Below the pieces are notes generated by a model. It did no database searches and was not told the DNA's origin. It saw nothing but the letters and a program-made list of their open reading frames with translations. Below, one piece after another: positions 5,104-34,941 of a stretch of 64,000 nucleotides of DNA; position 1 is the first letter of the stretch, and each line of letters opens with the position of its first letter. Source of the DNA: Fragilaria crotonensis. Taxonomy: Eukaryota; Bacillariophyta; Fragilariophyceae; Fragilariales; Fragilariaceae. The stretch covers positions 62,001 to 126,000 of the forward strand of contig JAKSYS010000018.1 in the NCBI GenBank assembly GCA_022925895.1, written 5' to 3'. The position numbers and the translations under genes are program-made.

Positions 5104-8027
5104 ATGTACGGTCACAATAACAATGACAGTCACTACAAATACGCCATCAAGAAAAACTCGCCAAATCAGTTTGCATTGGCTTCCAATTCCGATGTTGCTG
5201 AAATGGACTTTGCATTCGATTGCAATCCAGACTGCAACAACGATAATAACGGTGCGCTTCCCATGTTTCCTGTTCAGAGGACGCTACCAACGGCACGATC
5301 GGAAACACCAATAAGTAAATCACGTGATCATGGTCGTGAATCTTCCTCTCCCATATCTATGCGGAATCGGCAACGAAGACGGGAGCAGCAGAAACAACAA
5401 CAACATCAACAACCATCCTTGTCACCCACAAGACGGCGAACTGCATCACCTACGTATGCAGATACTGCTACTACTACCAGCACTACGAATGCCAATGCAT
5501 CAAACTCTCATGGTCGACCTGTCACTGTTGCCGATTCACCTTCACCAACGAAGCAATCCACACGCATGTCTCGGAATAAAAGCAATCATAGCACCAATAA
5601 CAACAATCGACTCGATATGCGATACGATGATGATGAGTTCGCCTTTACTGCACACTTGATTATGCATCATTTGGAGCAGCAATCTCGTGAGGAACATGAG
5701 GACGCAGGATGTGTCAATTGGAACGACTTTCATCAACTTTGGAACTACATTCAGGCAGGTGATGAATCCCAATCCAGTGTTGGTGGTGGTGGTCATCAAC
5801 AACAACAACAACGACCACCACCAGCAGATCGCGCTGATACTCCCTTGACGGAAGATTTGTTGGCAGAGTTTCAATTCGCTCTCAAACATCGTCTTAAATA
5901 CATTCCTCTCATATCACCATCGAACAATGACAAACAGAACAAGGAAGAAGAGCCCATCGTCGTGCTTACCCGTCAAGTTGCCAAACTGATTGCTAAATCA
6001 GGATTTCCTGAACCAAAACGACCACCACGACGAGATTCAAGTCGACGCCGAGACACCACCAATGACAAAGACGTCGGGGATATGGATGACTCGACAACTA
6101 TAGACACGGAACGAAGCTCTTCCATTTCTGCTCCTGTCAACATTCCAACCTCCGAGCCAGAAAAAGATGCCAACAAAAACGCTACTGCTACTGCTCCCGT
6201 CGCTGACAGTGGATACGCAACACCAGCTCAACCCGGCCTCCCTGCATCCTCAACCCAAGCTCAGAACTATCAGCATCCTCAACCTGGAACGTTTGACCTG
6301 CAACTGGACCATGCTGAATATATTCGACAACAATACCAACGAGAGCTGCAGGAACAATTACAACCCCAATCCCATGGCCGTATCAGGAACCCGTGTATGA
6401 AATGTCATCATCCATTCATCCCGATACTGTTGTCGATGCATACTTTGAGGAGGAAGTCATTGCCGAGCCCATTTTGGATCCTGCGTTTCATACCCTCGAC
6501 AATTTGCTCATCGACTCAACGACATTTTCGTCGGAATCGACCGTACCTTTGAAGAGGAGACGGTCGTCATGCGCCAAGTCACTCAGCCACCGCGTGCTCA
6601 TTTCCCCATTGTGTCATCGGATGGTTCTTTCGCGCATGAGGTCATTGTTCCTTCTAACGCAAACGACGACGAAATCAAGAGTCGTCCCTCGCATATCCCA
6701 CCCCAGCTCTCACCTGAGCGCTCGATTCCGAGACAGCGGATCATGGATGAAGCCAAACGTGTAACCAACATGATGAATCTAACGTCTCATCCACAAGTCG
6801 AGGCATCTTGTCGGTTACGTCTGGATGACTTGCGTTGCGAGTTGGAGCGTTTGACCGTGTATGATGATAATCATGATGACGATGATCACGACGACGACGA
6901 CGACAATGCTGGCAGAGCGAAGGAAAGGGTCGAGACTGAATTTCCATCAGCAGACTACTATGTGGATATTAGTCCTACAAGGCGTTTCTTTCCGGACGCA
7001 GAAGACGAGAAGGAAAGCATCCAAGAACTCAATGTTTTCAGTGATGATTCCCACAAGGAGGCCCAAACCTTGCACATCCAAGAGAAAGCCAACAGCCCTG
7101 AAGTTCATAAAACAACACATCTGGTGAGTCCGTTGCGGATTATCTTGTGGGGTCGACCACTTTGCTTTCGGAGGTACCCAAATCTCACCTTGTTCTTGAT
7201 TTGTACAATAGGCACCACCGGAAAGAGCATCGTTGGATATTGCTAAGGAACAGAGCTCTCAACCGGTTCATAGCATCGCATTTTCAGAACCAAGGTCTCT
7301 TCATGAACCTGTTTGGGATGAGGAAGAGGCGATTCTGTGTGATACGACTCAGTTTACGGGCAAGTGGAAGGACAGGCTGCTCGATTGCTGTCGCTTTGGT
7401 CCATGCCATGCTAGTGTTATCGCGTCAGTTTTTCTCCCCCTGAGTACGTAATCTTGGAAGCGATCACTGATCGCTCGACGTCTCGCCAACTCAATTCTCA
7501 CGGTCTTCTTTTTCATTGCTCGTACTCTCGCAGTGGCACTCGGTCAAGTCATGGTTCGGCTCCAAAATGTTCGCTGGATCGCCTTGCCATCGCCGCGACC
7601 CAAGGACCCCTTTAGAATTGCCATTGTGCTCACCATGTTTTGGATCACAATCAATTGTCTCATTTATTACTTGGCGTTGGTAACGTTCACCAAGCTGATC
7701 TTGTTCCTCGCCGTCAACAGTGCCTTATATCTTTACTATTTGGCCAATGTCATTCGTACCCGATTGCTTGTAAGACGTCGTTATGGGATATGGAATGATC
7801 GGACAGCAGAAGATACGTTGGTCGGAGGACTCGTACCATTCTTGTGTGTCATGCAGCTCTTGCGACACACGTGTGACTATGATACCTTGGCGGGTTTTGT
7901 TTGTACCGCCAACGGAGTGTCGTCGCAGGTTAGACTCATCGTGCCACCGCTCATTGTCGCTCCGTCCGATCCCAACAAGAATGATGACTACAGTCTAGCG
8001 ACAACATTGACAAATCCATTGCGTTAA
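5104..8027 (+). CDS. PLAC8-domain protein 1 (three exons, two apparent frameshifts)
   Basis: Exons are 5104-7123, 7212-7443 and 7534-8027; both introns (88 and 90 nt) are GT-AG, the first in phase 0 and the second in phase 1. The N-terminal half is low-complexity (Gln, Ser and Asn rich, with an Asp run). It contains a version of the mini-domain shared with the other PLAC8 genes here (acidic AF segment, then FALKHRLKYIPL). The PLAC8 region is C-terminal: WKDRLLDCC...CHASVIASV, a hydrophobic hairpin, then RRRYGIW and a second Cys/Gln block ending TCDYDT. PLAC8 proteins elsewhere (FW2.2/CNR, PCR) are membrane-associated and linked to cell size or metal export; the role here is unknown. The frame changes near 6366 (a C4 run; one more C would repair it) and near 6490-6510. 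Unlike the others, it lacks the LPxGYQ module. Confidence 0.8.
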
Positions 8028-8493
8028 TTGCAATAAAATCATGAATAAACCAAGTAATTTCCACCATGAGCAATGCACGGCGTCAATAGATTCTGATTTG
8101 CTACTTTCCATGCCATAACTCTCGACAACAGATGTATAGTAATCGAGCCGAGGAATATAACAAGAAATGACTCACCCAGGGTATATGCATGCGAAATAGA
8201 GACTGCGCAAGTAACCACGAAAAAAGGTTCTTCACGAGGCGCGATATGCTGGCTGCTTACTCTAGATAAAAGGTGCAGTCATCGACCTTCGAATCATTCT
8301 CTATGTGCATACCCATCTTCATTCCCAGACCTGCATCTCTGTTCGCAATGTACTAGTACCACAACAGAAGATGAAGTGACCAGATGCCAAAAGGATGAAA
8401 GAAAACTAACAGCATTATACGTATTAACGATCCTATTTCCAAAACCGACAGATTGATTCACAGAACACCAACTCTTCTCTGACAAGTTTCAAC
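8028..8493. other. convergent intergenic between PLAC8 genes 1 and 2
   Basis: A 466-bp gap between two stop codons. It contains an AATAAA-like stretch soon after 8027 (CAATAAAATCATGAATAAA), plausibly for 3' end formation. Nothing else recognised. Confidence 0.5.
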
Positions 8494-11378
8494 TCATGAC
8501 CTAACGGAGGGCATGTGTCTTAATAAAATCAAATTGACGTCCGAATCAAGGCCTGTCTTGCTGCACATCTGGGCATCCAGCTGATCGTAGGGTACTGTGT
8601 GACGGTGTAATTGACAGATAGTGCACGGCATGCAAAATGTAGCACAACAATTATCCTCCAAATCGTAAAGCGATATTCCCGAATGTGGTAAATCTCGCGA
8701 GCAGCAGCACGTGGCCGCAACTGCGTAGAGTGTAAAGGCAATACCGGCTACGTTCAACGCCGTGACAGCAACGTAATCGGAATTGTAAGAGGCAAATGAT
8801 GCACCCATTTGAAGTTGAAGGCCATGTAAATAACAACATTCATGGCGATCCAGAAGATAGTGATGGTCCACATGGTGGACCAGGTTTTGCCGCCAAGTTT
8901 GGTAGGTCTTCCAAAGGCATCGAGTTTCAATCTTGTCATGATTTGACCAAGCGAGAAGGGGACAGAAGATTGTGTTGAGGTTGACCGGATGGCAGACGCC
9001 GAACTTCGTGCAATCGCACAGACGATCACGCCAAGCCCCGGTGGGAACACTCGCCCGCTTGGAGCGAGGTCACGCATGATACAGGAGAATGTTTCGCCTC
9101 GCTTTGCTCCACCAAATGGAACAGTAGCAAGAAAACGGTGGCCGTCGATTTCCGCTTCAAATTGGTACCCAGCTGGCAGATCAGCGGGAGAAACAACGTC
9201 AACTCGATCTGCTCCACTTCCAGTAGAAAGATGCTTTGCAGGATCAGAGCCTTCGGAATGTTTCAACCTTGATTGGTCCAAGGGTGGTGCAGGGCCTAAG
9301 TAGGGACTCGAGCGTCGTTGGTCAACGAAAGGACTGCTACGACCGGACTGCTGTTTGACATAATTGAGCTGTGTTAGTTCCCGTGGTGCGGTTTCAGGAT
9401 TTTCCAAAGGCGGATGGAAGAATTCTGTGCTGTACTTAGGAGGACCATAGTTTGGTGTTGAAAGAAGCTCCTCCTTGGTGCTTTTCGGAACGTTGCGATT
9501 ATGCTCAATTCGTGGAGACGTTTTTGTAGGAGGTCGACGAGGAGGCGAGATGGGTCGAACGACTTCGGAGTCTGTTTCATTGTGAAGAGACCGAAGTCGC
9601 GCTTGAAGAGAAATGACATGATTTTTCCAGAACTCCGCCGCTTCGGGTGTTTGGGATTCTGCCATGAGCGTACTGGCTTCCCGCAACTCTGCCAAGAGCT
9701 GCTTTCGAGCCAGGGATTCTGATGTGGCAGCATGCTGCTGCTCGAGATGGGCTCGTAAGAACAGAAGCAACAGATGCATTTTCGTGCAACTCAACTTCTC
9801 TTGCGCGCAATCGTTTGTGCTGCTCCTCGAGATTTCGAAGTGCCCGGTTGTCACTTTCAGATGACGGGGCCAATGGAGGTCTCTTGGTGGGTGACACGGG
9901 AGTTGGCGGGAGTTTTGGGTTCGACATCGGTGGGGCAAAGGACCCGACACTTTCGCTAGTGTTTTGAAACGAATTGACCTGCTGAAGACCGGACACACTG
10001 CGAGAACCGACATGTGGGACACTTAGAGACGCACCCATGTGAGGGATGGAACCTTGAGTTTGAATCGAGTCAATAGTTTGTTTCTGTGTAAAGCGGAAAG
10101 ATGTAAGTGAAGATTAACAAGTGAATCCTTCGCATCAATTAGAAACAGAGGTGAACTTACAGCCGCTTCGACTGTACTACTACTGCTACTACTTGGTTGT
10201 CTCAAGAGTGGATTCAAGTCTCCTCCTTGGCCAAATTGAATTCAGCACAGCCTAGTCAATACGTGCACATGAGCTTCACTGCTGTGGGCAGTTGTATTTG
10301 AGGCGAAAGCGCACAGCTTTGACAAAGCTCTCGGACCGCGGGGGTACGGATGAGTCCAAAACTTTCCAATCTTCGGCATCAAGGTAAACTCCTTGGCTGC
10401 CGTGTCGTTGAAAGCGCTCCACAACGATACTGGCGACGACATGAAATGCATTGTCATTGTGGATCAAATCAAGGATCGACGGAGCTGCCGGCAGACGCGA
10501 CGGAGGCATCAGTTTGAGTGAGATCGGGTGATTTGCCAAGTTCCGCTGCGGCAGTGCTCAGTAGACCTCTCGTCAACAACATTTTCAGTACGAGGAGGGG
10601 TGTTGAAGCGAGACTTGAGAGGCGACGATCCGCTCTGAATGGCCTGTTGGTTGACACTGCTAGCATCGTTGCTGTTGATGGTACTGTTAGCAGAAGTACT
10701 GCTGAAGCGAGATTTGAGAGGCGACGACCCGCTCTGAGTGGCAGGTTTGTTGACGCTGGTAGCATCGTTACTGTTGGCAGAACTACCGCCGTACCGACGG
10801 GGGGAGCTCAATTTGTATTCCTCCATCCCTTGTTTGGTCAATGCGTCAAATCTACGTGAAGCGGAGTTGATTTGCTTGGGGTTGAAGGAGTCTCAGCATC
10901 GCGTTGACCAGTAGTAGTAGTCACGGGCACGGGGCGATTCGAAGTCAATTGGTATGGTTCCATATCTTGCTTCGAGGTGCATCGATTCTACCAGAAGCGG
11001 GAGAAGATTTTGCATGTGACTCTTCCTCCTTTTCCCTTGGTTCATCAATGGTTCGAATCGTGTAAGGTTGAGCAGATTCGTCTTCCGTCAAGATGGAATC
11101 GGCAGCATCCATGGCCTGCTTAACAATTCGTTCCGTAGAAGTGTCTGGAAGTTCTTCGCGTTCTCGTTCACGGGAACGTCGATGAACTACAGCTGTTGAC
11201 TCTGTGATTTGACTCATCAACTCACTATCTTCCGGTGAGCGTTGCGATACAATTTTACGTCGGGCAAATGGTGAGGTCGGTCTGCTTTTGGGGATCGCCG
11301 AGTCGCAAGTCCAGCCTCAGTGGGATTGCTAAAGGCATTTCTTCCACTAGGTGCCGCTGCAGGTTTTGGATTCCACAT
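8494..11378 (-). pseudogene. PLAC8-domain protein 2, heavily frameshifted
   Basis: Following the coding sense across frames gives one PLAC8 gene starting at 11378 (MWNPKPAAAPSGRNAF). It continues through an RERER segment, a duplicated SGSSPLKSRF repeat (10600-10740), the shared N-terminal mini-domain (HNDNAF...VRFRLKYNC, 10285-10470), a phase-0 intron (10084-10160, GTAAGT to CACAG), a coiled-coil segment and the module SPADLPAGYQFEAEIDG (about 9150-9200). PLAC8 follows: AWRDRLCDCTKFGVCHPV at about 8995-9050, then CCATFCMPCTICQLHRHT. At least eight frame changes are needed, near 11290, 10955, 10870, 10545, 10270, 9740, 9060, 8960 and 8815. That is far more than in its paralogues, so it is probably a decaying copy, though sequence errors add doubt. 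The PLAC8 region has no intron at the site where genes 1 and 4 have one. Confidence 0.65.
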
Positions 11379-13435: not shown

Positions 13436-13804
13436 ATTCAAGTAGATGGCGTATTCCAGTACAGTGCATTTGAGGTCGACCTTTCGTAGTCTCAGCCTGC
13501 AATACGGAGTACGGGACAGTACAGGTACACGCAGTGAGAGTGCCGCGTTCCGTTCACGACATCCGCACCCGCAGATCTCCGCTAACACTGGCACCCACGG
13601 CATAGACCATAGACTCCAGCTGGTGCAACTGGTGCAACTTGCAACCTGCCTGAAGAAAGTAACAGCCATCTTCCTTGGAACTACGCCGACGGTGCTTCTT
13701 AGTCTTCATCACACAATCGCTCACAACGATTACAACAATAGTACTTCAAGTCTCCTACTGATAGTGCGACGTATTTCTGGCTACACGCTATTGATACAAC
13801 ATAC
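13436..13804. other. intergenic, promoter side of the next gene
   Basis: A 369-bp gap between the transposon end and the next start codon. No motif identified. Confidence 0.4.
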
Positions 13805-14410
13805 ATGAGTGCCTATGCCGGAACCACTCCTTCGTCTGGTCGTCGCGCTGGACGGGCGGCTGCCCGAGTGACGAGTCATGGTGCTGCCAGAAGTAGTGGA
13901 CGACGCTCCAGAACTAAAAAGAATCAACCCTTGTTGAATTCTTCTTCCTTCTCTACAGCTGATCAGCATCAATACGGGACGAATCAGCATCATAATCATC
14001 ACCAACCATTGAAGCGGAATGCTCGATCATGGACTCTGTTGGATACACCACTCGGTGGGGCGGGATTAATTGTGCCAATGTGGGTACCAGTCGATACATT
14101 GACGGACGAACAAAAAGAACAATATGCATTGAAACAAAAGATGACGGAACAAGAAAAACAACAAAACGAGGGATCGAACGATTCCACGATCCCGGCAGAA
14201 CTGGCGCATCCTGAAGTTGTTGTCGCTGTGCCCATGACCGATACATTCACGGAAGTCACGTCTCCTTCCGAGGTCCCTCCCACTAGTTTGGATCCCGGAA
14301 CAATCGTGGAGCAGCAAGAGGAAGGCCCGCCTCTAAAGAGGCAAAAGACGGATGAATTCCAAAATAGTGAACCGAATGACATTGCAACGATCGGTACCGC
14401 TGCAAGTTAG
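13805..14410 (+). CDS. hypothetical protein, basic N-terminus
   Basis: A 201-residue frame that I do not recognise. Residues 1-42 are basic and rich in Arg, Gly and Ser (GRRAGRAAARVTSHGAA), as in nuclear or nucleic-acid-binding proteins. The centre holds a more conserved-looking stretch (LLDTPLGGAGLIVPMWVPVD) followed by an EQKEQYALKQKMTEQEKQQ helix. The C-terminus is acidic and ends with a KRQKTD-type basic patch. No signal peptide or membrane segment. A second frame (14352-14648, same strand) overlaps its end and reads plausibly (ENRERRALFEVADAF), so a 3' frameshift or a further exon is possible. Confidence 0.5.
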   Translation: MSAYAGTTPSSGRRAGRAAARVTSHGAARSSGRRSRTKKNQPLLNSSSFSTADQHQYGTNQHHNHHQPLKRNARSWTLLDTPLGGAGLIVPMWVPVDTLTDEQKEQYALKQKMTEQEKQQNEGSNDSTIPAELAHPEVVVAVPMTDTFTEVTSPSEVPPTSLDPGTIVEQQEEGPPLKRQKTDEFQNSEPNDIATIGTAAS

Positions 14411-15475
14411 CAAGCGACTTTCAAAGATTACCTCATTTGTACACTTTGCGCGAGAACCATCTACGGAAAAGTGTCAAGAGGCGATGGCTTGCATACTGGG
14501 AGGGATTGAGAAAGTGATGGGACACTCTGATTTTGAAAACAGAGAACGACGTGCCCTTTTTGAAGTTGCTGACGCTTTCACGCACGCGCACAAGATTGAT
14601 GTTTCTTTCTCCTACTCGAATGATACGGGTCGTATCGCCGGAGAATGAAAGATCCATTATCGAGGGATGAAAAAATGACGCCTCGATGGTCGTGATTAAC
14701 GCAGCAAATGTCCGTTATCCTTCCTGAATAATCTTGTTCCAAACCTTGGTAACCATGTGCGCTGAAGTTTGTTTTAGCTTTCAGGGTCAAGAGGACGGAG
14801 ATCCATATTGGTTACGTCTTTGAGTCCTGAAGGTAGAGTAAACACTGACTACCCGGAATGATAATCGCAATGTCTGCAGCGTTGTCATGAGGTGTGTAGA
14901 TGTACAGCGTTTATGTCACGTGGGGTCCTTACTTCGCCATCCCATGACGATGATCAGATGGGTCTATACTTGATCATTATAAGTAGATCAAGACTATGAT
15001 GTAATAGTGCGCCGAGCACTCGGCAGTCGGCAGGAGTTGCATTAGGCGCAGATGTTCTTTCGGAGCTCCGGACTCCGGAGTACTACCTGGTACAGTACCG
15101 GTAGACTGACTCTACAGAAAGCCAGTACTGGAGTTCTCCAGTACTCGAGTAGCACCTACAAACCCTGTTGTACAAGTAGACTACCGGTAGTCTAGCACGT
15201 TAAATTAGATTTTGGTTTTTTTTTTTGTTGTACAAGTACTCCAGTAGGGTACAAATCTTCGAACTCCCCGCAGAAAACAGACAAAAACTGCGTGTGCAGG
15301 ACGAAATGATTCATTTTTTGTCAAAGGAGAACACGGAACACTCAGGATGTGTAGTCACCTGCCACCAGACAGAAGTGAGAACACACATACACACACACAC
15401 CTTCATTCCACAATTCATCGACCGTCGCATTACTCATCATCAGTAATTGCTACAACTAGCACTTTTGACTCTGCG
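14411..15475. other. intergenic with GTAC and ACCGGT palindromes
   Basis: Apart from the possible 3' extension of the previous gene (to 14648), no gene is seen. 15060-15245 is crowded with short inverted repeats, including the perfect 18-bp palindrome TAGACTACCGGTAGTCTA at 15177-15194. A T-run (about 15218-15226) and an ACACAC tract (about 15383-15400) follow. Confidence 0.5.
15177..15194. repeat. 18-bp perfect palindrome
   Basis: TAGACTACCGGTAGTCTA equals its own reverse complement. It sits in a 180-bp stretch full of GTAC-type inverted repeats. Confidence 0.8.
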
Positions 15476-16072
15476 ATGAACTTCCATTTCCGTGCCTCCC
15501 ATGCTCTTGTTGCTGCTATATCATTGATTGTTTCCTGGTCAGTATTCCCATCACCAGCTAATGCGGCAGCAGCATGTTTGCCACCGTGCGTACCTGGAGA
15601 TGAGAGTATCATGAGACCGAAGGAACATGGAACATCTCACACTCCAGTCCAATCTCCTCTTCGGTGGGGATGCAATGTCGAGGTTGCCGATCGTATCTGC
15701 AATTACAATCGTCATTATGCAGAATATTCAGGATATTTCGAAGAAACATCATTCTTACTGGATGTCACTGGCGATGGAGTTTCTGAAACCAATCCAATTC
15801 ATTTTTATGACAGCAATACAGGAAAACTCGTTTTTACGGCACCTGTCGGTCGTTCCTTTCCAGACTTTGTCGAAGAATCTCGTCGTCATGGATGGCCAAG
15901 TTTCCGAGATGTGGAAGTGAATTGGGATACTGTGCGGATCTTGCCGAATGGAGAGACTGTGAGCGTTGATGGTACTCACTTGGGACACAACCTTCCAGAC
16001 GGAAAAGGGAATCGATATTGTATCAATTTAGTTTCGATTGCTGGCAATGCGGTTGACGAAAATGAGCGGTAA
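15476..16072 (+). CDS. secreted MsrB-like (SelR fold) protein
   Basis: A 198-residue protein. I choose the ATG at 15476 because it opens a classical signal peptide (hydrophobic core AISLIVSW, Ala-Asn-Ala junction near residue 30). The body matches the methionine-R-sulfoxide reductase B core: FYDSNTGKLVF, then HGWPSF, DGTHLGHNLPDGKGNRYCIN. MsrB uses the Cys of the RYCIN block for catalysis, with HLGH nearby, and both are present. The two CxxC zinc pairs of standard MsrB are absent, and the Cys usually found before HLGH is not there. The protein is either a divergent reductase acting in the secretory route or plastid, or a non-catalytic relative. It converges on RPT4, 155 bp away. Confidence 0.75.
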   Translation: MNFHFRASHALVAAISLIVSWSVFPSPANAAAACLPPCVPGDESIMRPKEHGTSHTPVQSPLRWGCNVEVADRICNYNRHYAEYSGYFEETSFLLDVTGDGVSETNPIHFYDSNTGKLVFTAPVGRSFPDFVEESRRHGWPSFRDVEVNWDTVRILPNGETVSVDGTHLGHNLPDGKGNRYCINLVSIAGNAVDENER

Positions 16073-16227: not shown

Positions 16228-17635
16228 TTACACCTTGCTATAATCCAACTTGGATTCAAGCTTCTTGTTGTCCAGAATCTTACGAGCGGCCTTCATGAAA
16301 TCCTCTTCCAAAACGTAGTCTCGATCAGCTCGAATAGCAAAAAGTCCTGCTTCCGTACAGATATTTCGCATGTCGGCACCGTTCAAGCCATCCGCCAGCT
16401 TCACCACCGATTCAAAGTCGATGTCGCCCTTTTTGGTAATGGAGGCCGCATGGATCTTGAGAATTTCAAGACGCTGCGTTTCGTTCGGCTCGGGGATTTC
16501 AATTTTGCGATCCAAGCGACCAGGACGCAAGAGGGCAGGATCCAAAATATCGGGCCGATTCGTCGCCATGACCATTTTGACTGCGCCCTGTTCCTCAAAA
16601 CCATCCATTTGGTTCAAGAGTTCCATTAGTGTACGTTGAATTTCTCGATCGGCACTGGTACCTTCTGAGAATCGAGACCCACCAATGGCATCAATTTCAT
16701 CCATGAAAATGACACACGGTTCATGATCGCGAGCAAAGCCAAACATTTCGCGAATAATTCTTGCCGATTCTCCAATGTATTTATCGACAATAGCAGAGGC
16801 AACGACCTTGAGGAAAGTGGCAGCAATGTTGGAAGCCAGGGCTCGTGCGAGGAGTGTCTTGCCGGTTCCTGGCGGGCCATACAACAGAACACCCTTTGGT
16901 GGCTGTTTCGAGCGCGCGGAAAGTATCAAAAGATTGTTTGTGAGAATTCAGCATTGACAAGGACGAATACGCGGCGCTATGTGTCATACATGTTTCCAGT
17001 AATGATACAAAAGGTCTCCTCCGACGAACCGCACAGCTGCGCGCACGTACCTTGATGCCAACACGAATAAAAAGTTCTGGATTGGTCAATGGCAATTCAA
17101 TAACTTCGCGCAACTCTCTAATCTGTTCATTGAGACCACCAATATCACTGAAACTAACTCCACCATCTTCTTCTCCACTTTGCATGTGAAAGACAGTAGG
17201 ATCAACTTCTCTGGGCAAGACTCTCATAATCGTCAGCGTGGTCATATCCAGCGCAACACGCGTTCCTGGTGCCAGCTTCTCATGATTCAGACGCGTTCGA
17301 CAGCCCACAACGTAGCGAGGTCCACTGCTCGCCTTGACAATGAATCGTTCCGCGTCCAATCTCTTGAGAACATCTCCAATAATCTGTCCGACTGACTGAA
17401 GTGCTGACAAATCATCTTCTGTCTTTTGATAACGAGCCACAAGACCACGAACGTCTTCGCGCATTCGTTTCAAGCGGGCTTCCACTTCGCGATGCTCTCG
17501 AATTTTGGCACGGTATTGCTCCAACACTTGTTCGCGTTCGCTTTGTTCTTGCGAAATTGCAACATTGGCTTCTTCAGCGGCAGCAGCAGCCGCTGCATCA
17601 GCCGCAGCGGCATTGTCAGGGTTATCCGATGACAT
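16228..17635 (-). CDS. RPT4: 26S proteasome regulatory ATPase RPT4 (PSMC6)
   Basis: Two exons, 17635-17051 and 16902-16228, joined by a phase-0 GT-AG intron of 148 nt (16903-17050), give 419 residues. The order is an Ala-rich N-terminus, a coiled coil (about 28-75), an OB-like region ([20 protein letters not shown]), then the AAA+ domain. The AAA+ domain shows Walker A GPPGTGKT, Walker B FMDEID and the second region of homology with LLRPGRLDR. The C-terminus SKLDYSKV resembles the RPT4 tail. RPT4 is one of six ATPases in the proteasome base ring that unfold ubiquitinated substrates and feed them to the 20S core. The frame is clean across both exons. Confidence 0.96.
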
Positions 17636-19308
17636 GGTCGTTCCTAGATTCTTTCAAGTGGCAAGGTCGGTTTACTGGGTCAGGATGATGCCAGACAATG
17701 GTAGAGCTAATGCGATGGCTGCATAATTTGTCATTACAGTACAACAGTATGATGATTAAACGACAATACAATACCGCAATTGTTACATAGTACATGTAGT
17801 TGTGCCTGTACAGTACATGCAATATGTGCCAGTGAATCCTTGATTTTTCGACGCGGTTCCTGAGGCATCCATCCTGGATCTTTACAGGGGATGAGGATAT
17901 ATACCGTTGGTTCGTTGAAGACTTTCGAACCTCGCACACCCTTCCAATCCGCAAGGAGCAAAGACCAAAGACGAAAAACAACCGGACAAGCGGACAAGAA
18001 TCCAATTCGTCCGTCTGAATGTCTGAAGTCGTATCGCAGTTGCGACGTCGCGATGTCGCGACGAGGCCACGTGTTGAAGTAACACGGAGGGAAACTCCGT
18101 ATGCATATCTTTTAGTGACACCTCCTCCTCGCAGTATTCCGAATTTGTCTTGCAATACTCCGAGTAGGTGCTTGTTACGGGTCAGCCATACTGCAAAATG
18201 CGTTTTGGGCTTCACACTTCTGCTCGGAGTACGGCATGAGAATTTGTCGTCCTCCACGTGAGTTGTGGTATGAACTTGCAGGTTGCAGTACAGGAATAGG
18301 ATTAGGAGAGTCGAACACCATCGGTGGGAGACCGCGTTTCGGTTCATTTTTTAATCGGCACGTCAATCCTCCTTGTCGAAAGTGCTTTCTTCATCTGTGT
18401 AGCTCTGAATACACAAAACCAAAAGGACATCAAGGTAGCAAATGACTAAACTTCAGGTTGCCCTGGTGGTCGCGATCTTTCTCGTTTCTCTCTTGTGGGT
18501 GGTTGCCTCAGTCATCAAGGTGACCTTTCTCCTGATCGAGACTGTGTCGTCGTGACATTTTGGTATTACATTACAAGTTCTACAGTACACGCCCGTTATC
18601 TGCCGTCGGTTCCATCTCCCAGTTGGCACGTTGAAACGCTTGGCGCAGGATAGGGTGTTGCCATCCAGATCGTCGCTCCGTCTCAATGGTCATTCCGGTC
18701 ATTGCAGGAATGCAACCCAATTAATGGTTGACTTCTTAGCAGATGGCTCGGAGGACTGCGCACTTTCAATCCGACTCGGATTCGGAGTACACGACTGCCG
18801 TCCTGCGACTCGTGGTCAATGGTGAACTCTGTTATTTTGTGGAAGAGAGGCCAATGCAACACCTCACGTATCCAGAAGTACAATCTATACTCTACTCTAG
18901 ATGGCTTTTTTGGTACGACTTTGTCACTCCGTTTCAAATCAAACGGGAAGTTAGGAAATCCCTTACTCCTACTTCTGTCATTGCTGCTTCCTAATGACTC
19001 TCTATTGCTTCTGTAAAGTTAATCGAAAGTCCGTCGGCAGCTCATGATGAAACATGACAACATGACGAATAAATGGTTGCACGACATGAGACATGAAATA
19101 GCTGCGCAATGCGCGCATGCTGTCGGGTGACAGGCGGGCAGACGTCATTGATTGTCGCCATTCAGATCTGACAGCGATTGGTACCAGGTACTTGATCCAG
19201 GATCCTGGCATGCAGATCATATCTTGCTGTACACTCCCCCCATGTCTTGTCAACCCAGCCCATGACACACGGTGCGAACCGCGAACAATTAATCACAAGC
19301 AATCCTCA
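17636..19308. other. intergenic, no supported gene
   Basis: Frames of up to about 240 codons exist on both strands (for example 17622-18347 minus), but they overlap one another, lack domains and read as random sequence. I see no gene here. The first part is the RPT4 promoter side. Confidence 0.5.
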
Positions 19309-21269: not shown

Positions 21270-22115
21270 ATGTTTTGCAGTCAGCCAAAGCCGTACGAAG
21301 AGGAAGACACGACGATCGCGGACTTTGTCATTATTGACAGACATGGCGACGAGGAGGATGAGCCGTCCCTCTCCAAGGCTTTCATCTGGGGCTATTTCTT
21401 CAGACCTTGGCACCTGTTCAAGGTGACTTTGATTGTTCTTGTGGTTTCTGCTTTTTTCAAACTCCTCATCGACTGGAATGATATCGTAGCCCTCTATGTT
21501 GGGTTTGCTCTTTTGCTCGTTCAACTTATCTTCACCGTTGACAAAATCCCTGGACTGAGGCTCAACACACAGTCTTACCTGACCGGCCCGACAATACATT
21601 CCAATTTGGAAGAAACCAGGAAAAGGACGAAGAAATTCTTTAGAGGGCCCAAAAGAACTCATTACGTTGTGTTGTACACGACAACTGGTTTGAATGGCAA
21701 ACCCATGGTGATTCGCAAGGTATTGCAAGCTGGGGTGTTTGATGAGGACTTGCCACAAGACAATGCGACTAGGAATGTGCTGACCGACCTCGTATGCCGA
21801 GAGGGAGCGCCTTTTTCAGCCTTTCCACGAAGCGCTGTTTGGAAACATCAGTTGCGATACAGGAAATGGATGCTCTATTTCATGCCCGTCTTGGTTGTCA
21901 CTTGCGTTGCCATTCCTTACAATCTTTATTGCTCCTACACCGTCGAATGGGATCAAACTCACCACATTGAACTACTCAAGCCAATTTTTGTTATCTATGG
22001 CGTTTTGTACCTTCTTGTGCTGTTGCCTCTGCTCTACAAGATTCGGAAGTGGAAGTATGATGTGAGTTACGGCGGCGAAGACATCACCTCGACCCAGGTG
22101 AGCACTGGGCCCTGA
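21270..22115 (+). CDS. four-TM membrane protein of unknown family, paralogue A
   Basis: A 281-residue protein; I use the ATG at 21270. An acidic N-terminus (EEEDTTIADFVIIDRHG) leads to HLFK and a hydrophobic hairpin (LIVLVVSAFFKLLIDWND, then ALLLVQLIFTVDKIPG). A soluble region of about 120 residues follows, with YVVLYTTTG and LVCREGAPFSAFPR. A second hydrophobic pair (MLYFMPVLVVTC, then FVIYGVLYLLVLLPLLY) precedes a short cytosolic-type tail. I do not recognise the family. The gene at 27496-28361 is a clear paralogue with the same architecture and the same GAPFSAFPR block. No intron is needed. Both lie between the two PLAC8 pairs. Confidence 0.8.
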   Translation: MFCSQPKPYEEEDTTIADFVIIDRHGDEEDEPSLSKAFIWGYFFRPWHLFKVTLIVLVVSAFFKLLIDWNDIVALYVGFALLLVQLIFTVDKIPGLRLNTQSYLTGPTIHSNLEETRKRTKKFFRGPKRTHYVVLYTTTGLNGKPMVIRKVLQAGVFDEDLPQDNATRNVLTDLVCREGAPFSAFPRSAVWKHQLRYRKWMLYFMPVLVVTCVAIPYNLYCSYTVEWDQTHHIELLKPIFVIYGVLYLLVLLPLLYKIRKWKYDVSYGGEDITSTQVSTGP

Positions 22116-23560: not shown

Positions 23561-26500
23561 ACATTAATGGCTACAGATCGAAACAGTATATGCTGATGTA
23601 GATTGTGACATCCTTCACTGTCAGCCACTTTCAGAAATCATCCCCCACTCTGAGGATCACTAGACAAATGATGGTACACAACCAGCAACATCCGCCCGAC
23701 AGCAGAAGCGCAGTACTAGTAGTACTACAGAGGACATGCTAAGTTTAAAAACAAGACTCTGAAAAATGCCCTACTAGTTGCCTATTACGACTAAAGATGG
23801 AGTCACTTGTCATCCTACGGAAAGAATTCTCACCAAATGCTAGTAGGTTTGAATGATATACTCAGCGATCCACTTAATCGTGACCCACATCGCCTATGCC
23901 ATACGGTGGCGAGCGGAATAATTCATTGGCAAACAAGCAGCGGGAGGCAACAAAGATTAGAATCCAACAGCAACCTACTTTAGACGTTGCAGCATATTCC
24001 TACGATGATCCGGGAGCGATGGATCTTAGATCTTACCACCACTTGCGTGGCTGAACCACATGTGATCACTTATCCAGAGCTTTGGGATCTATTTCAGAAA
24101 CATATGGAAGACCAGGAACTGAAGTTTACATAATCAACAAAATGAGAAGCTCCTCAGCATGAGATCCTCAATGGAGGCAATCATTAAGACAAGACAACCA
24201 GCAAAAAGCAAGAACAAGGTGAATGCCAGCAATAGGCATTGGTGTGATATGCTGGCTGTCACTTGGAAACATGCATCATAACTGCAAAGGCTTCGACACA
24301 GAGTACTAGATGGCTTTGCAGAATCCAGGGAGCTCCTCAAAAACTACAAAGTGGCAGAAAGGGTCAGACAAAAATGGCTTTTGTTCATTGCGACCAGGAA
24401 GGTAGTAGTCGACTAACGAACTCGGCTGACATGTTCCAATGTGCATCATGTGAAGGATGTTGGTATGCCATTCATCTGTCCTGCATCAGGAATGCTGAAA
24501 GGACCGTGGTGCTTGTGAAAAGACATAGAAACAAGGCTGAAAGGATCATGGTGTTTGTGAAAAGAAATATACAGGAAAGTGAAATGGTAGTGACTTTGCT
24601 TGAAAGAGATTGGGGTTCAACAGGAAACTGAATTGCCAAAAAGAAATTAGTATGAGCAAGCAACAGTTGCCAGCTGTAGAGTTCTTTTAGCAATACTAGT
24701 ACTCCTTGAACGGCACTGGAAGACCAGTGGAACAGTATTGGTATAGCTCTGTAGGAGCCAAAGCACAGGGACAGCGAATAGAAGCAAGATGCAGAGTCCT
24801 CAGCAATCCAATGAAGAAATGAAAAGACCAACATCAGATGAGTGCCCCTGTTCAATGGCAACAATGCAAACAAACATCCAACAAGGCACTGAGCACTGTA
24901 AGAACAATGGGATGAGTGGCAGTATCCCAAAAATAGGAGCTGAATGAAAGATGAACTTCCTCTGTAAACAACAGAGTAGGATGAAGTCGCAGAATGAAAT
25001 GGCTCTTGATGCGGATTAAATGAAAAACATCACCTAAGCTTAAGCCAGCCATGTTAGGGCCAGTGGAACAGGAGGTGGTGTGCTGGTGTCTCAGTCTATG
25101 TTAAATATCTCTGATTCCCAATACCGTAGACTCTCTATCCAGTAGTGAATTCGACGCTACTAGATCCTGTTTTCGAATATTGTGAGTTCTAGAAATTACA
25201 CTTTCTAGATCTATTCCAATCTTGTTCCTGGACTCCAAAAGCTCCCAAGATTAACCACACAACTCATCCAGTACAAGCAGAACAAACACAAGGCCACTTT
25301 CCTTAAGTCCAAGTTGGAACAAGACCAACTCCAGGACTGAAAGTAATCCCACTGGATTAATCTAACCCCGGATCCATTAGCACATATGCCTATAAAGGCT
25401 TTCCAACTCTTGCATGCCTCTTGGCATAAATCCTTATGTCAGGTCTTGGTCTTGGACTTGTTTGAACCTCTGTTCACAACTGTCCAACCAAGATCATCAT
25501 CGTCCAGGACATAGCTAGCACACGATCCGATCGAACAGATAGTTTTCGCACTTGCAGTGTTGTCGCGTGGTACAGTAGCACCGTTGCCATCGACATCGTC
25601 ATCGCATCGTACGGTAGGACCGTCGATTTTACCAACAGTGGCACAGTTTGATCTGACAAGTGTAGGAGTGAATGGCAACCTTGCATCACCATCTGATAAT
25701 GAGAAGTACTGAACTCATAGCTCTAGTAGTTGAAATTGCCAAAAGGCACAGAAGTCATCCCAACTGAACAGCAGAAAGAGTGTTGGTTGAAGCCAAAAAG
25801 TTGGGACCAATGCATCAAAGTTGAATTTCCTCTGCCTGCTTTTTTGCAGCATGTACTAGCTAGTGTGCAACGATGCCAGGCAAAGGAGTTAATTGGAAGA
25901 GGGAACAGCCTTGCACTCACAGGAGTGCACGACCAAGAGGATACCACAAAGAGAACCCCATGGGGTACACTCTTTGGTCTTGACTAAAGACCGAGGGCGG
26001 TGTTAACACGATAATTAGTTCTTATATACAAAAAGAACCCCATCCTGTCTTCAGAATGAACAAGAATGGATCCACCATGGTGGTAATCCACAAGCAGGAC
26101 AGTACCCTTGCATAGCTAGTGCAGTAAAAAAACTGACAGACAGTTTCAAAAAACTCATCGCTGGTAGAGATTGTGTTGTCATAATTCTTCTTCTACATTC
26201 GCACATGAGAGAACTTATAAGGGTTGACAGGTGGGAATCTGGTGGATGTCAACCAGCAGGATGACATCCTCCCTGAACCACGTGGATGACCCTAAAGAGG
26301 AGTGCAGATTTGCCGTCAGTAAACCATCTGAACCATTGCAATTAAATTGTCTTGTTGATAGTATGGTGAACAATATTGCTCAAAATCAGATGATAAAGAT
26401 GGGTGAGGTTATTTACAATGGCATGCAATACTGCACCAAAATGATGGCTCCTCCAGTTATGGTTGCATGATTGCCTCCAATTGGTGCAAAGAAGCAATGC

Positions 26501-27495: not shown

Positions 27496-28361
27496 ATGGA
27501 GGCCCTCAACGAAAGTATTCGGGACCTGGCAGAGAAGCAAGACGAGTTCCTCGCCGACTTTGTCTCATTTGATGAAGGCGACAAAGAAGGCAATGATGGG
27601 GAGCCCGATGTCTGGACCGAATTCTGTGGCGCGTGGCATCTTTTCAAGATTACGATTATTTGCATTGCCCTTGTCTTGACGTTGGGGTACCTCATATGCT
27701 GGAATGATATCCTTGCCTTGTACATCGAGTTTTCACTCCTTCTTGTCCAGCTCGTTTTCGCTATTGACAAGCTTCCTGGTATGAGACTTGACACGCGATC
27801 GTACATGCGTGGTCGAGCAGTTGCTGCGACTCTGAACGACACCAAACTTGTCAGGGTGACAAATGTGTTCAGCGCTTTGAAAAAACCAAGCTACGTTGTC
27901 GTTTATACTACTAATAAAGCGGATGGATCTGCCGTGACTATTCGAAAGACGCTTCAGCCCGGTTTCTTCGACAAGGATTTGATTGACGGTGAGATTTGCG
28001 ACACAAAATATCTGACTGATCTGGTTTGCAAAGAAGGAGCACCCTTCTCCGCTTTTCCTCGAAAAGCTGTTAAAGGCACAGCAGAAGGGAAAACAAGTGG
28101 ATCCTCTATTTCATGCCCATCTTGGTTGTAACCTTCCATGCGATCATGTTCAACTTGTTTCTCTCCTATCATTTCCTGGTGTACGTGCCAAGGGCTCACA
28201 TGAAGCACGTCCACCTCCTGACTCCTCTTTACATTATTTTTGGCATTCTTTACATTGCTATCCTTGTCCCCCTTGCTTTTGGTATAAAGCGTTGGGTGAA
28301 TGATGTGCACAATGGTGGGGAGGTGATCACCACGGAGGATGCATGTCCCAGTGACCCATAA
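27496..28361 (+). CDS. four-TM membrane protein, paralogue B, one frameshift
   Basis: Same plan as the gene at 21270-22115: acidic N-terminus with LADFVSFDEGD, HLFK, hairpin (ICIALVLTLGYLICWND, then LLLVQLVFAIDKLPG), YVVVYTTN, LVCKEGAPFSAFPR and a second TM pair (WILYFMPILVVTF...). I prefer the ATG at 27496, which matches the paralogue's N-terminal length; upstream in-frame ATGs exist at 27409 and 27454. The frame changes near 28066-28080 just after FPRKAV. Comparison with the paralogue shows one base missing, which would fit one A lost from the AAA run. It is either a recent pseudogene or a sequence error. Function unknown. Confidence 0.75.
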
Positions 28362-29009: not shown

Positions 29010-31841
29010 TTAGATGAGGCGGTACGTCGAGTATTCGCGTTGATCGCTCGTCTGACCCTTCTCAATATCAACAAGACTTTCGCATGGTAACTTCACTTCG
29101 ACGTGGTTAGCAAGTCCCGTGTCAGTGCAGCAGTAAGATTGGTAGGTTTCATAATCAGCAGTATGCCGTCCCATTTGCGCAATGGTGCAGCAGGTGCAGA
29201 AGAAAGTCAAGCAGCAATCTTCGTGGCCATGGCATCTCAATTCCGGAATGCCATACTCTCGTCGAATAGTTTTTCGTGTTTGCATCACCATGCAGAGAAA
29301 GTACAAAATCAAGATGATGTCCAACCCAGCCAGAGGAAATGCGAACATCAAAATGGTCTCCTCATCAGGTTTTCTCAGCATCAAGAAGCACCCGCAAGCA
29401 ACATGAAGTGCAATCAGCAGAAAGAAAAGCAAAAGATACCAACCAACGCGTGTCCTCGATTTGATTGTCATGACAGGATCGCCAGTGTCCGAAAGCTGAA
29501 TTCGAGCCATGATTTGGGATAGCGCAATCTGTGGACAAAAGATGGAATTGCACAAAAAGTCATGACATAGACCATGGCGAAAACAATCGAATAGTTCGTC
29601 CCTCCATCTGGATGGCGGGGCGTCCATGTCTCTGAATATCCTTGTCCTCCTTTGGGAAGCATCCGATGGGTCGCCGCGGGCGTCGCCCATGGCTGTTGAA
29701 AACACCTCGCCCTCTGTAACTCCACCGGGTGGTACAGTCGCCACAAAGTGCTCATCCCCAATTCTGGCCTCAAATTGAAAACCCTGTCAAAAGTTGTGTG
29801 AGAATTTGTATTTGTTGCATGAAATGAACACACCATAATCACATACTGCTGGTAGTGTGGACGGCGCCACAACCTTCATAAATCGTAGCTGCTTTCTGGT
29901 ATCTGGGAGCTGATTGCTAGTGTCATTGGATTTGGGCAGGAGAGGCTTCTTCTTAGAATCATCTATGACAGTGCGTCCAGTCCTAGTTGTCGTTTCCTTT
30001 TCAACTTGGTGCAAAATTGTTTTGTTGACGAGGGCACTTTTAGTCGGCGATGTTTCTTTCATGGCATGGTCACTGTATGTTCCATTGTTACTGCCAAACT
30101 CATTTTCCATTGTATTATTGTGGTTTCGAAATTCATATGAGGCGCGGTTCCATTTTTCGAGTTCGATCCGTAACTCGGTCCTGTAGGATTCGTACGCCCT
30201 CTTCTTTTCCTCCAGCATCTTGTTTTGCTCTGCAGTAGCAGCAGCACCGCTAGCACCTTGTCGTCGTGGTGGCAGTTGCAGTTGCTGCAACAACAAGGAG
30301 ATTCGATCAATTTCATCCAACAAGTTTTTGCGCAATTCCATGCTTTTATTGGTAGCTTCGGCTTCATCAAAAATAAACAAACATTTGTTCCTAGCGATTT
30401 CGAGCAAATAGTTGTCATCCTTGACTGCAAGTTGAAGTGTCGAGGATTGTGGATCAGATTCATTTTCTTGTTTGCCAGTTGCAGTAGCAAGCGGCTGGGC
30501 ATTTGTTGGTGAAGCCCAATCCGGAGATTTACGTGCTGCTTCGGTCTTAGATTGAGGATCATGGAAGTGTGCATAATCGAGCAACAGATCGGCACTTTCG
30601 TCTTCCTTCGTTTCATTTGGAGTTGGAATGCCCTCATTCACGGTTTTGACAAGAATGTTCCAATCGATATCGATATGAGTCGGTGGTGACGTTACAGGCA
30701 CCACCGGAGGTTGCTGAATGTGCAGAGCCGGCGGGCGGAATAGCTTGTATCGGGGTTGTGCTCCTGCACTCTGCATCGGCGATAGCGCGGCATTTGTAGC
30801 CTGGAGACCCATCCCATGATTACTAAAAGGCTGATATTGATGATGATGATGAGGATTCGGATCATAGTGGTTCTGGGAAGGAGCAGGATTATACCTTTCT
30901 CTGTGCGACAGATTTTGTATTGGCTGGGTCTCAACTGACAGACTCGATGCGGCCGGAGAACGATTCGATTGGTACAAGTGTTCCAGATGTTGTTGGGCTG
31001 ACATTGCTACTGACGAGTCATCGTATGAGGGTGCATAATGATGGTAGTGTTGTTGTTGATATAGATCTCGAGCACTGTTTTGGTAGGTTGCCTCATGGTG
31101 CGGAGGAATGTCGAATCGAGCCGGTACATGGTTATTTTGGTGTAGACTCTGATGTTGAGGAGACGGCTGCGGAGTTTCCAGGCTTGGAGGAGGCTGATAT
31201 TGTTGGGATGACGGTGAAATTGGTTGCCGAAAATCGGGAGGTGGTCCAGAAGGCGGTGAAAATGTTGGAAATGGATGCGAATGATCCTTGTCCTCGTGAA
31301 AAGCCCCAACTGCTGGTGACGAGAAAGGACCGGGTGAGGCATTATTGCGGTGACTGTTTGGGATCCCAAGTCCAAGTCGAATCCGAACTTTGGGCGATGG
31401 TTGTGAACTGCTTGTGGCTTTATGACTCCGCAGTGCGCTTCCGAATAGTTGATCAACGTCGCGTACAACTTGGTTGTTTGGATCTTCATTGACTACGGGA
31501 AATATGGGTAGTTGAGATTTTCGGAAATTGACAGCCTCCGCAAAAGCATTTCGTTCGTGTGGAAGTAGAACTGAATCAATGGCATCCTCTGCATTCAAGT
31601 TCCTGGTCCTGTGTCGTTCCAACAATGCCATGGCAATATTCACAAATGCGTGGTCGTCATGCTTGAGGTTCATGGATGGTGTTCTTGACTGTTCTGTGGT
31701 TATAATGGGAGCAGGCGATGGGTGGACAGCATATTCATTTGCTGGTTGTGGCATGGAGTACATTCCTGCCTTGGTGAAAGCCCGTTCGCTGATGATTCGG
31801 TGATAAAATGATTGTACTGTTTTCTGAGTGTGCACACGCAA
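29010..31841 (-). CDS. PLAC8-domain protein 3 (two exons, intact)
   Basis: Exons 31841-29847 and 29783-29010 flank a 63-nt phase-0 intron (GTATGT to GACAG) and give 922 residues without a frameshift. The N-terminal mini-domain is at residues 61-119 (HDDHAF ... LPIFP), matching gene 4. A long Pro/Gln/His/Ser-rich linker follows, then a coiled coil (LLDEIDRISLLLQQLQ and EKKRAYESYRTELRIELEK). The conserved module APSTLPAGFQFEARIGD...TVPPGGV is split by the intron right after LPA. PLAC8 comes next: WRDELFDCFRHGLCHDFLC, a hydrophobic hairpin, RREYGI, then CCLTFFCTCCTIAQMGRHT. It lacks the phase-1 intron inside PLAC8 that genes 1 and 4 carry. Start alternatives: Met at residue 27 or 30. Probably membrane-associated; role unknown. 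Confidence 0.88.
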
Positions 31842-32407
31842 TACTCGGAGTACTCGGAGTTCTACAAACTACAATGCGATGTGTGTCAGGAACAGAAAAG
31901 CGCAGCCCCGGAAGGACTTCGTTGCCTTTGACTTTGAAAGCTCACAAATGTGGCGACTCACGTTTCTGCTCGCCCAAAGGCATTTATTCTTTTATATTAT
32001 TCAAGTACGTATATTTTACGCAACTTCTCGGCTTCTAAATTTACAGATCGGCGAACCAACAACATCTAAAGAAAGAGATAAAATCAATGAATAGTGACAT
32101 TTTAGATTTTAAACAATTAGCTGCCAAGAATGTCTTGACGGGAGGGTTTCTGCGCAAGGAGATGTCCGTATATATTACTCAGCAATTAGTGAAGGCATCC
32201 TTTGCAAATGCTAACTGACCTGAACAGGTGATCTGCCTGATCTTTGACTCAAGTAAACAATCTGCTACCTTCATCAGTGTGGACTGAGGACCACTCCCAC
32301 AATCAGATCACAAAGCGACACTTGATTCATTCTGGGCCTTTCCCCATAAATGCTTGTTGTCGACCTGGTTCAGAGCCGACCCAGCTTATTCTTGAGATTT
32401 TGAGGAT
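31842..32407. promoter_or_regulatory. divergent intergenic shared by PLAC8 genes 3 and 4
   Basis: A 566-bp spacer between opposite start codons. It holds ACTCGGAGTACTCGGAGT (31845-31862) next to the gene 3 start. Shared control is possible by position only. Confidence 0.4.
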
Positions 32408-34941
32408 ATGCCCTATTATTCAACTTCGAACGCTCGCGACCCACTATACGATAGAAATGAACCATCCGCCAAGTATTACGGTCAATTTCGCGCCAGTGAA
32501 GCGAAGCCACCACAGTCGTATTATCAACCTCCTCAACCGGCCAATGGGGGTTCAAACGTTAATACAAATACACCTGTCACACCACCGCATCCGAATCCAT
32601 TGTTGCACGACGATGAAGCCTTCATCAAGGCTACCGAGTCACTTTTACAGAAACGAAAAATGACGTTGCTGTCGAGGACGAAATTCATGTATTCCAAAAT
32701 GGACCCGTTGGAACGCTCACAATTTGCAGCGGCATATTCGAGACGATATCAACGAATGCCCATGTTCCCAGCTGCCGATGAAACTGTCCTACAACGCTGG
32801 ATGAGACGCATTGAAGAAGATTTTGGTGATGCATTTTTGCAAGTCGTCGGTCATGGTGATGGCGTTGGTTTACCTCAACAACAGCTACAGCAGCAACAAC
32901 AACAGCTACAGCAGCAGCACCACCAGCTAAAACGACAACAGCACCAGCAACTGGAGGAACAACAGCCCTCTTACCATCAAGAGAGACAACCGCCTCCTTC
33001 ATTCAATTCAAATCCGAACGCGCAGAGGCCGAGAATAACGAACAATGAGCACTCATCACGTCAATATCGTCAATCGCCTCCCCCAATAAGACAGGAACAC
33101 CGAGACAACTACGACGAAGAACATTTGGTTCATTCGTCGCGACCAGCATCCTACTCAAATAGGGATGGCATACCTAACAATTCGCATGCGCCCTTACCTC
33201 GACGAAAGGACAGAAGGACGAAATCTCCAAGTCGACGACATGAATTCGAACCAACGCAGCAGGCAATCGACGTTGCAAATCTCACTGCTGCAGCACCGTA
33301 TACTCCCACATCCATTCTAAAAAAGTCTCGTCTCGGTCGTGAACCTGTGGCACAAATCATGGAGGTGTTGCCTCCAGCCGCTCCTTCTAATGTGGCATCG
33401 TCGGGGATCCAGTTCTGTGTTGAAACTCCAGTCCACGACGCGTCAAAGTATCATGCAAGAGATTGCGTATGTGAATAATCTCTTGGCAACCATGCCCAAC
33501 AGTGACGGACGAGGCAATAGTAACAATCTCAATGACAACCGCGCGTACTACACAGAGCATCTTTGGAGTCTCAAGGAACAGCTACATCTCTTGACTACCA
33601 ATGGAAACGAGGACAGCGAGCGCATTCTTACATACGACGGACCCGCCGTGAATCAAGTCTTGGACGCGGTGCTTAATTTGAACACGAACGAATCGATTGT
33701 CGAAATGGATGAAATTGTCGGACCAGCTCCCAGTAGTGTGAAGAGAGCTAGGGAATCAAGTCCGAGTCCCAAACGTGGTGGTGACAGGCAACTGCAATCC
33801 AACGCTCCGCAACGATCGCGTCGTCGCTCGAAGGAACGAAATTTTGAAAACTCAACGAGCCCAAACGAGGAGAGACCTGGCTCAGCGTTGGAACGTGGTT
33901 TATCGACAGGACAAGACAAAACCCCAGTAGATGCTTCTATTCCCAAGGTAATTTCCTTCGAACAAAGCCCGGCTTCCAACCATGCAATTGCTGCAGCGCA
34001 GCACCAGTGGGATGATGATGATGACATGACGAATTCCATTGTCGAGCGAGGGACCTTGGATGTTGGACCGACTATCGCGAAGGAAATACCATCTGTTCGA
34101 GTTGTTGCACCAGCGAATTTGCCAGGAGGATATCAGATTGACGCACAGCTCAACAACGAATCGTTCAAAGTTACTGTACCCGAGGGAGGAGTGTCGATGG
34201 GCCAAACATTTGAGGCCAAACCGACAAGTACAATTGCTGCCGGTGAAAGCAGGTGGAAAGCGGGACTGTTTGATTGTTTGGCACTCGGAATCGTACATCC
34301 AATCTTTTGCAATAGCTTCTTCTTCCCGCAAGGTAAGTGCGCATCACATATGAAACTGTCGTTTCTTCAGGGACATGTCTTATTTTTTAAATCTTGTTTG
34401 TCTATTTCACTGGCAAAAGTTGCTCTCACTCAGATCTTGACGAGGTTACGCATTTCACCTTTGCAACGCGGACAAGTTGCATCATCACTTCGCAAACGAC
34501 TTCGCATCAAGACGGTTCTCCTATTATCAACTGCATTTTTCTTGTTGGATCTTCTCCTCGTCTGCACCATGATTTGGCCCGCGAATACTGCCGCCAAGAT
34601 TTTTCTCTCATGTTATTTTGCTTGTGCAACATTCCTGCAGCAGTCTATTTCTGCTATTGGGTGGTCAAACCAGAAGACAAGTTCGTGCTGCGTACAATAT
34701 CCCAGCATGGCAGCGTAATTGCGAGGGTGGCGAAGACGTGATGGTATCTGTTTTTTGTCTGCCATGTTCGGTAGCCCAAATGATGCAACAGACTGCCGAC
34801 TATGACACCTACCGAGCCATTTGGTGTTCAGAAAGCGGCTTGCCCAACCATAGCTCTGGTACAGAAAAGGCAATCATTCCAACTCTCCCTAGTGCCAATG
34901 GTCCACCGAGTTTGATGAGCCATGGAGACAGACCTGTGTAG
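32408..34941 (+). CDS. PLAC8-domain protein 4 (two exons, two apparent frameshifts)
   Basis: The N-terminal mini-domain occupies residues 67-124 (LHDDEAF ... MPMFPAADE). A Gln-rich run (about 32870-32970), a Ser/Arg/Pro-rich linker, a helical segment (YYTEHLWSLKEQLHLL) and an Asp run follow. The conserved module VVAPANLPGGYQIDAQ...VTVPEGGV (about 34098-34197) precedes PLAC8: RWKAGLFDCLALGIVHPIFC, hydrophobic stretch, RAAYNIP, VFCLPCSVAQMMQQTADYDTY. A phase-1 intron at 34333-34419 (GTAAGT to AAAAG) sits at the same place as intron 2 of gene 1. The frame shifts near 33440 (before MQEIAYVNN) and near 34620-34650 (between the two halves of PLAC8). Each needs a single-base change. Confidence 0.8.

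Follow-up and report, generated by a model that had tools for sequence, protein, structure and literature searches.

Introduction

Why do four PLAC8-type genes and two genes for a four-transmembrane (four-TM) protein lie together in one stretch of a diatom genome, and do they form a single system? The stretch in question, referred to here as the window, comprises 64,000 nucleotides (nt) of Fragilaria crotonensis contig C109 (G000:C109:62001-126000), with a guanine plus cytosine (GC) content of 0.42-0.51 per 2-kb step, and the genome searched amounts to 62,107,879 bases in 881 contigs. The published F. crotonensis SAG 28.96 assembly is described, in the portion of that report drawn on here, as 61.85 Mb in 879 contigs with a GC content of 47.40% (PMC9476933). 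PLAC8-type genes A and B are convergent, C and D are divergent, and the two four-TM genes, both on the forward strand, are sited between these pairs. The start codons of genes A to D were chosen by us, and the 5' limits given for them depend on that choice.

An initial annotation proposed that this locus is a locally expanded, co-evolving membrane system. The reading preferred here, to which we give about even chances, is that PLAC8 genes of a subtype marked by a long N-terminal arm were duplicated locally long ago, that the four-TM pair is linked to it incidentally, and that the product of gene C would be an oligomeric protein concerned with divalent cations. The cluster is real and mostly ordinary, with one mildly new element, the arm carrying the mini-domain, and with one orphan family.

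The PLAC8 Genes

All four genes resemble PLAC8 (Pfam PF04749, gathering cut-off 34.4 bits) once their exons and frames are joined, the scores of A, B and D being taken on exons or frames joined by us. Gene C (29010..31763, reverse strand) has intact frames, carries a GYxF...VPxGGVxxGQ module and PLAC8 in its last exon, contains a 63-nt intron at about 29784-29846 with GT...AG ends, and exceeds the cut-off at 54.9 bits. Gene D (32408..34941, forward), in which 34113-34866 encodes the GYxF module and the PLAC8 part, with an 87-nt intron at 34333-34419, reaches 44.3 bits on joined frames and 32.2 bits, below the cut-off, when unjoined. Gene A (5104..8027, forward), in which a long linker precedes the PLAC8 part (7329-7943, interrupted by a 90-nt intron), scores 25.1 bits (E 3.5e-5), and gene B (8494..10509, reverse, 5' end at about 10509; 9185-8524 encoding the GYxF module and the PLAC8 part) scores 24.3 bits (E 6.3e-5). 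The convergent and divergent pairs that had been annotated are placed and oriented correctly, but A and B, judged from their scores to be homologous to PLAC8 yet divergent, fall short of formal family membership. The PLAC8 parts of B, C and D each contain two hydrophobic segments. As read from the alignment, the cysteine (Cys) motif is CCLTFFCTC in C and CCATFCMPC in B, D retains the second half and A has none.

The genome-wide Pfam scan returned 11 PLAC8 matches, 9 of them above the cut-off; two are in the window (C, and D at 32.2 bits) and nine lie outside it on eight contigs. The GYxF...VPxGGVxxGQ module is complete in B, C and D, though not in A, and six of the nine outside genes likewise have it in full, a seventh having part of it (again read from the alignment); by this distribution it is not special to the cluster. 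A DNA search for a second haplotype copy of D gave 13 matches, one being D itself and the other 12 being short matches in the glutamine-repeat stretch.

The N-Terminal Arm

A mini-domain with the motif HDDxAF ... PxER..FA.A ... R...PxFP had been ascribed to all four PLAC8 proteins. It is firmly identifiable in C (31425..31667, reverse) and D (32600..32842, forward), both of which carry the motif as written: used as a genome-wide query, the C copy finds D at E 2.1e-6 and otherwise only itself at E<=1. In B it is probable (10279..10482, reverse) and fits the motif only loosely, while the candidate in A (about 5623-5900, forward, E 91) is unproven. For the more distant copies, profiles were run over 5564 open reading frames (ORFs) of at least 30 amino acids (aa) from the window and twenty fetched stretches. 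The profile of C and D ranks B first among non-self ORFs at E 0.41. A profile that includes B as well, however, gives E 0.39 to an unrelated ORF (L029:8678-8914, the best such match, over 17 residues), and the E-values therefore cannot settle the matter by themselves. When the whole genome was searched with the B copy, no match but B itself appeared at E<=10. The similarity score of B to C was reached by 0 of 2000 shuffles and that of B to D by 55 of 2000. The mini-domain of B is favored because its position is just upstream of a PLAC8 gene, in the same orientation, and because no shuffle equalled its score against C.

Around the nine outside PLAC8 loci, no ORF of at least 30 aa in the retrieved stretches contains the mini-domain at better than E 0.39, and at the sensitivity used the mini-domain is restricted, within this genome, to the present locus. 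Its profile has no counterpart among PDB sequences at E<=1. Between the mini-domain and the PLAC8 part, a weak helical hairpin-like element is suggested in all four arms, and is suggestive only. Leave-one-out profiles rank D first (E 1.5), A second (E 0.7) and C third (E 1.4) among non-self ORFs, and B is not among the best 14 matches listed. The pairwise scores were reached, out of 2000 shuffles, by 4 (A-D), 17 (A-B), 17 (B-C), 191 (B-D), 235 (A-C) and 613 (C-D).

Kinship and Local Duplication

In a tree of 12 PLAC8 regions, from which the copy on contig C647 (70 residues, truncated by our reading) was omitted, support was 81/82 for C with D, 84/83 for A, C and D, and 71/76 for all four window genes; in a second tree of 13 rows that included the C647 copy, A, C and D grouped at 82/85. 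C is the closest genomic relative of A (36.8 bits; the runner-up scores 27.1 bits). With the GYxF module of C as query, identity was 57% to B, 52% to a copy on contig C66 and 45% to D. A divergent PLAC8 pair about 2.2 kb apart on contig C417 shows that local duplication has occurred elsewhere in the family. The PLAC8 copies on contigs C548 (L019) and C647 (L022), 89% identical over 70 aa, were observed to lie in a common duplicated segment.

Taken together, the window cluster is likely to be the product of an old local duplication that includes B, although for B this is not proven. Recent duplication was rejected because the end branches are long (0.9-2.2 changes per column) and because, when the window was compared with itself by blastn, the only match among these genes was one of 35 nt joining the two four-TM genes.

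An alternative, which we consider unlikely, is that B (or A) did not arise from the local duplication behind C and D, and that the faint likeness of its mini-domain is due to chance or convergence. The E-values cited above for B (0.41, beside 0.39 for an unrelated ORF) and for A speak for such an origin, as does the loose placement of B in the 13-row tree. Against this, B ranks first among the non-self matches in the set of 5564 ORFs and lies just upstream of a PLAC8 gene in the expected orientation, its mini-domain score with C was matched by none of the 2000 shuffles, its GYxF module is closest to that of C, and the closest PLAC8 region to A is again that of C.

Possible Function of Gene C

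Gene C is best read, from its sequence, as the best-preserved member of the cluster. The preferred account holds that PLAC8 genes of a subtype bearing a long N-terminal arm were duplicated locally, long ago, in the diatom, the arm being arranged as mini-domain, low-complexity linker, perhaps a helical hairpin, GYxF...VPxGGVxxGQ module and finally the PLAC8 hairpin. The four-TM genes form a tandem pair of their own, which most likely came to lie in the same region by incidental linkage. C would encode a protein that sits in the membrane and may self-assemble through its two-helix PLAC8 core, the assembly possibly serving the passage or homeostasis of divalent cations such as Ca2+, Cd2+ and Zn2+, as suggested by plant and fungal relatives, with the arm acting perhaps as a cytosolic tether or gate. 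In the parts of the literature used here, PLAC8 proteins are cited in fungal Cd metabolism and plant Ca2+ transport (PMC7409359), and a cation role is likewise reported for PLAC8 relatives (PMC12467093). Because fungal and plant relatives are so reported, C is most likely a membrane protein handling divalent cations, with its arm as tether or gate.

Among known systems, the plant PCR, FWL and CNR proteins (AtPCR1) share with the window genes a PLAC8 region of two hydrophobic segments, the CCxxxxCxC motif in the case of C, and, for C and D, a score above the Pfam cut-off. The plant PCR proteins, described in the source consulted as small transmembrane proteins carrying a CCXXXXCPC motif (PMC12467093), differ from the window genes, in which a long N-terminal arm, the mini-domain and the GYxF module stand in front. 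The land-plant MCA mechanosensitive channels are similar in being multidomain proteins with a C-terminal PLAC8 part following a coiled-coil-like part, according to the passages cited (PMC8049495, PMC8526687). Unlike them, the window genes gave no Pfam match to the MCAfunc domain at E<=1 in the scanned N-terminal frames of A to D, and MCA proteins are described, in the text relied on, as plant-specific (PMC8526687). The nine other PLAC8 genes of the genome share the PLAC8 core and, in most cases, the GYxF module, yet differ in the mini-domain, which is not found at better than E 0.39 in the stretches fetched. The last exon of C has no PDB sequence at E<=1, and in IMG/VR, where the scan reaches close relatives only, it gave 3 stretches, none of them confirmed. 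None of the 5 papers listed by a library search combining PLAC8 with "diatom" has either term in its title or abstract.

Several observations pull the other way. The window genes are very diverged, none of their forks is starred in the 12-region tree, where branches are long, a grouping of B, C and D without A was not rejected (p-AU 0.175), and in the 13-row tree B, only loosely placed, falls outside A, C and D. The candidate mini-domain of A has E 91 with the profile of C, D and B (140 when the insert of A is included), and scores of its pieces were reached by 37 to 982 of 2000 shuffles. With regard to function, C alone among the window genes keeps the CCxxxxCxC motif, and MCA channel activity, as stated in the part of the study cited, did not require the PLAC8 portion (PMC8526687), a point that speaks against a pore role.

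Conservation of the mini-domain, if confirmed, would mark out a diatom PLAC8 subfamily equipped with a regulatory arm, and the four-TM pair would represent a small orphan membrane family; neither the arm nor that family overturns the established picture.

The Four-TM Family and Its Linkage to PLAC8

The two copies of the membrane protein that had been noted are borne out. Gene 1 (21270..22115, forward) is a single open frame of 281 aa and gene 2 (27496..28361, forward) is read in two frames; the proteins are 46-48% identical and each has four hydrophobic segments by the Kyte-Doolittle scale. Their description as unrecognised also holds in the parts scanned, as gene 1 matches no Pfam family at E<=1, and the first part of gene 2, the only part scanned, gives LNS2 at E 0.077, below the Pfam cut-off, and nothing else at E<=1. 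Gene 1 finds no PDB sequence at E<=1, no pattern match in IMG/VR, and 28 stretches in GTDB contigs of which none was confirmed, both of the latter scans reaching close relatives only. As a genome query it gave three matches, all inside the two window genes, so that at single-query sensitivity the family consists of two copies, both at this locus. The term "locally expanded" is supported by the tree grouping (84/83 and 71/76), the locus-restricted mini-domain and the presence of both four-TM copies here.

The further proposal, that PLAC8 proteins with arms and four-TM proteins make up one co-evolving membrane system, appears very unlikely and finds no support within the genome. It draws on the fact that neither the mini-domain nor the four-TM family was found elsewhere in the genome, on the distance of only about 650 nt between four-TM gene 2 and C, and on the short interval (31764..32407) that separates the chosen start codons of the divergent genes C and D by 644 nt and is possibly a shared promoter. 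It is opposed by the absence of a four-TM gene near any of the nine outside PLAC8 loci, on account of which the adjacency is not recurrent inside the genome, by an AAA ATPase and other open frames that separate the members, and by the approximately 5 kb, including a long terminal repeat (LTR)-like element, that lie between the two four-TM genes. The neighborhoods fetched around PLAC8 genes, compared within and among themselves, yielded 180 ORF pairs at E<=1e-5. The 90 of these 180 that were inspected consist of PLAC8 pairs, the four-TM pair, within-contig repeats, a duplicate segment of contigs C548 and C647, a transposon-like ORF family and a short L027-L032 pair; apart from the transposon-like ORF, the repeats and that short pair, no recurrent non-PLAC8 gene family was seen among them.

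A narrower version, to which we attach only a slight chance, would have the divergent C-D pair and four-TM gene 2 regulated together as a membrane module that only some diatoms possess. Just as improbably, such a module would contain a PLAC8 oligomer with long disordered arms ending in a new binding mini-domain and a four-TM partner of an undescribed family. Incidental linkage of the four-TM tandem pair to PLAC8 is the most likely explanation.

Frame Breaks: Decay or Assembly Error

Six tight frame breaks occur in the cluster, with inter-frame distances of -4 to 11 nt, which makes them too tight for introns. Three are in B (near 9050, 8955 and 8800, with the frame shifting within 8, 1 and 11 nt), two in D (near 34634 and 34669, both -1 nt) and one in four-TM gene 2 (near 28090, -4 nt); the linkers of A, B and D also change frame, possibly at introns, and these sites were left out of this count. 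No tight break was found in C, four-TM gene 1 or the PLAC8 part of A, nor in eight outside PLAC8 regions, where only gaps of 72-212 nt occur.

These breaks may reflect decaying copies or nanopore assembly errors. If they reflect decay, the locus would be a tandem array in which C and four-TM gene 1 survive as working copies, B, D and four-TM gene 2 have become pseudogenes and A has drifted, a scenario we regard as possible but doubtful. It is compatible with the duplication history preferred here, from which it differs in the number of working genes. The concentration of all six breaks in three genes agrees with decay, as does the erosion of the Cys motif, which is gone from A and reduced to its second half in D. 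However, long open frames and recognisable PLAC8 sequence persist past the breaks in B and D, and insertions or deletions (indels) are present elsewhere in the assembly: among HSP70 genes, taken as a yardstick (36 genome matches), four tight frame changes without stops were found in three genes (contigs C452, twice, C358 and C548), and a further copy on contig C881 carries stops. The likely source assembly is moreover described, in the section cited, as built from R9.4.1 nanopore reads with Illumina polishing and as 81% complete (PMC9476933). Indels look denser in B, D and four-TM gene 2 than elsewhere. The outcome is for now one of annotation, and it cautions against inferring a system from adjacency in an indel-bearing assembly.

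Neighboring Genes and Other Features

The initial annotation made no mention of the six breaks, the intervening open frames, the AAA ATPase or the LTR-like repeat. Between cluster members lie open frames at 13742-14410, at 15248-16072 (SelR at E 0.0055, under the Pfam cut-off) and at 19102-19740 (thioredoxin-like Pfam families, also under cut-off), along with the AAA ATPase at 16228-17653, which resembles a proteasome subunit. The LTR-like repeat, at about 25096-25664 in the gap between the two four-TM genes and outside both gene families, has copies on other contigs with identity up to 98%; because these are often paired about 5.2 kb apart, it is probably a solo LTR. Contig C465 holds pieces of both flanks of this repeat with less DNA in between. 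Downstream of D are a myo-inositol-1-phosphate synthase and then a DHHC protein.

Elsewhere in the window, positions 1135-3598 presumably hold the remains of a Copia-type retroelement, with integrase- and polymerase-like frames. A long transposon-like ORF at 48124-50838, presumably a DDE transposase, has relatives in fetched stretches L025, L026 and L033. A single open frame at 58970-60616 is, we assume, a fusion of indole-glycerol-phosphate synthase and phosphoribosylanthranilate isomerase, and the ORF at 62120-62914 ends in proline-threonine-rich tandem repeats.

By its gene content the genome is that of a diatom, since the scan returned 19 matches to the silicon-transporter family PF03842 and 61 to the light-harvesting family PF00504. 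Single open frames with three silicon-transporter units (G000:C97:29749-33762) and with two (G000:C771:21664-24330) were also observed, and multi-SITs of this kind are described for Synedra in the part of the source cited (PMC6114903).

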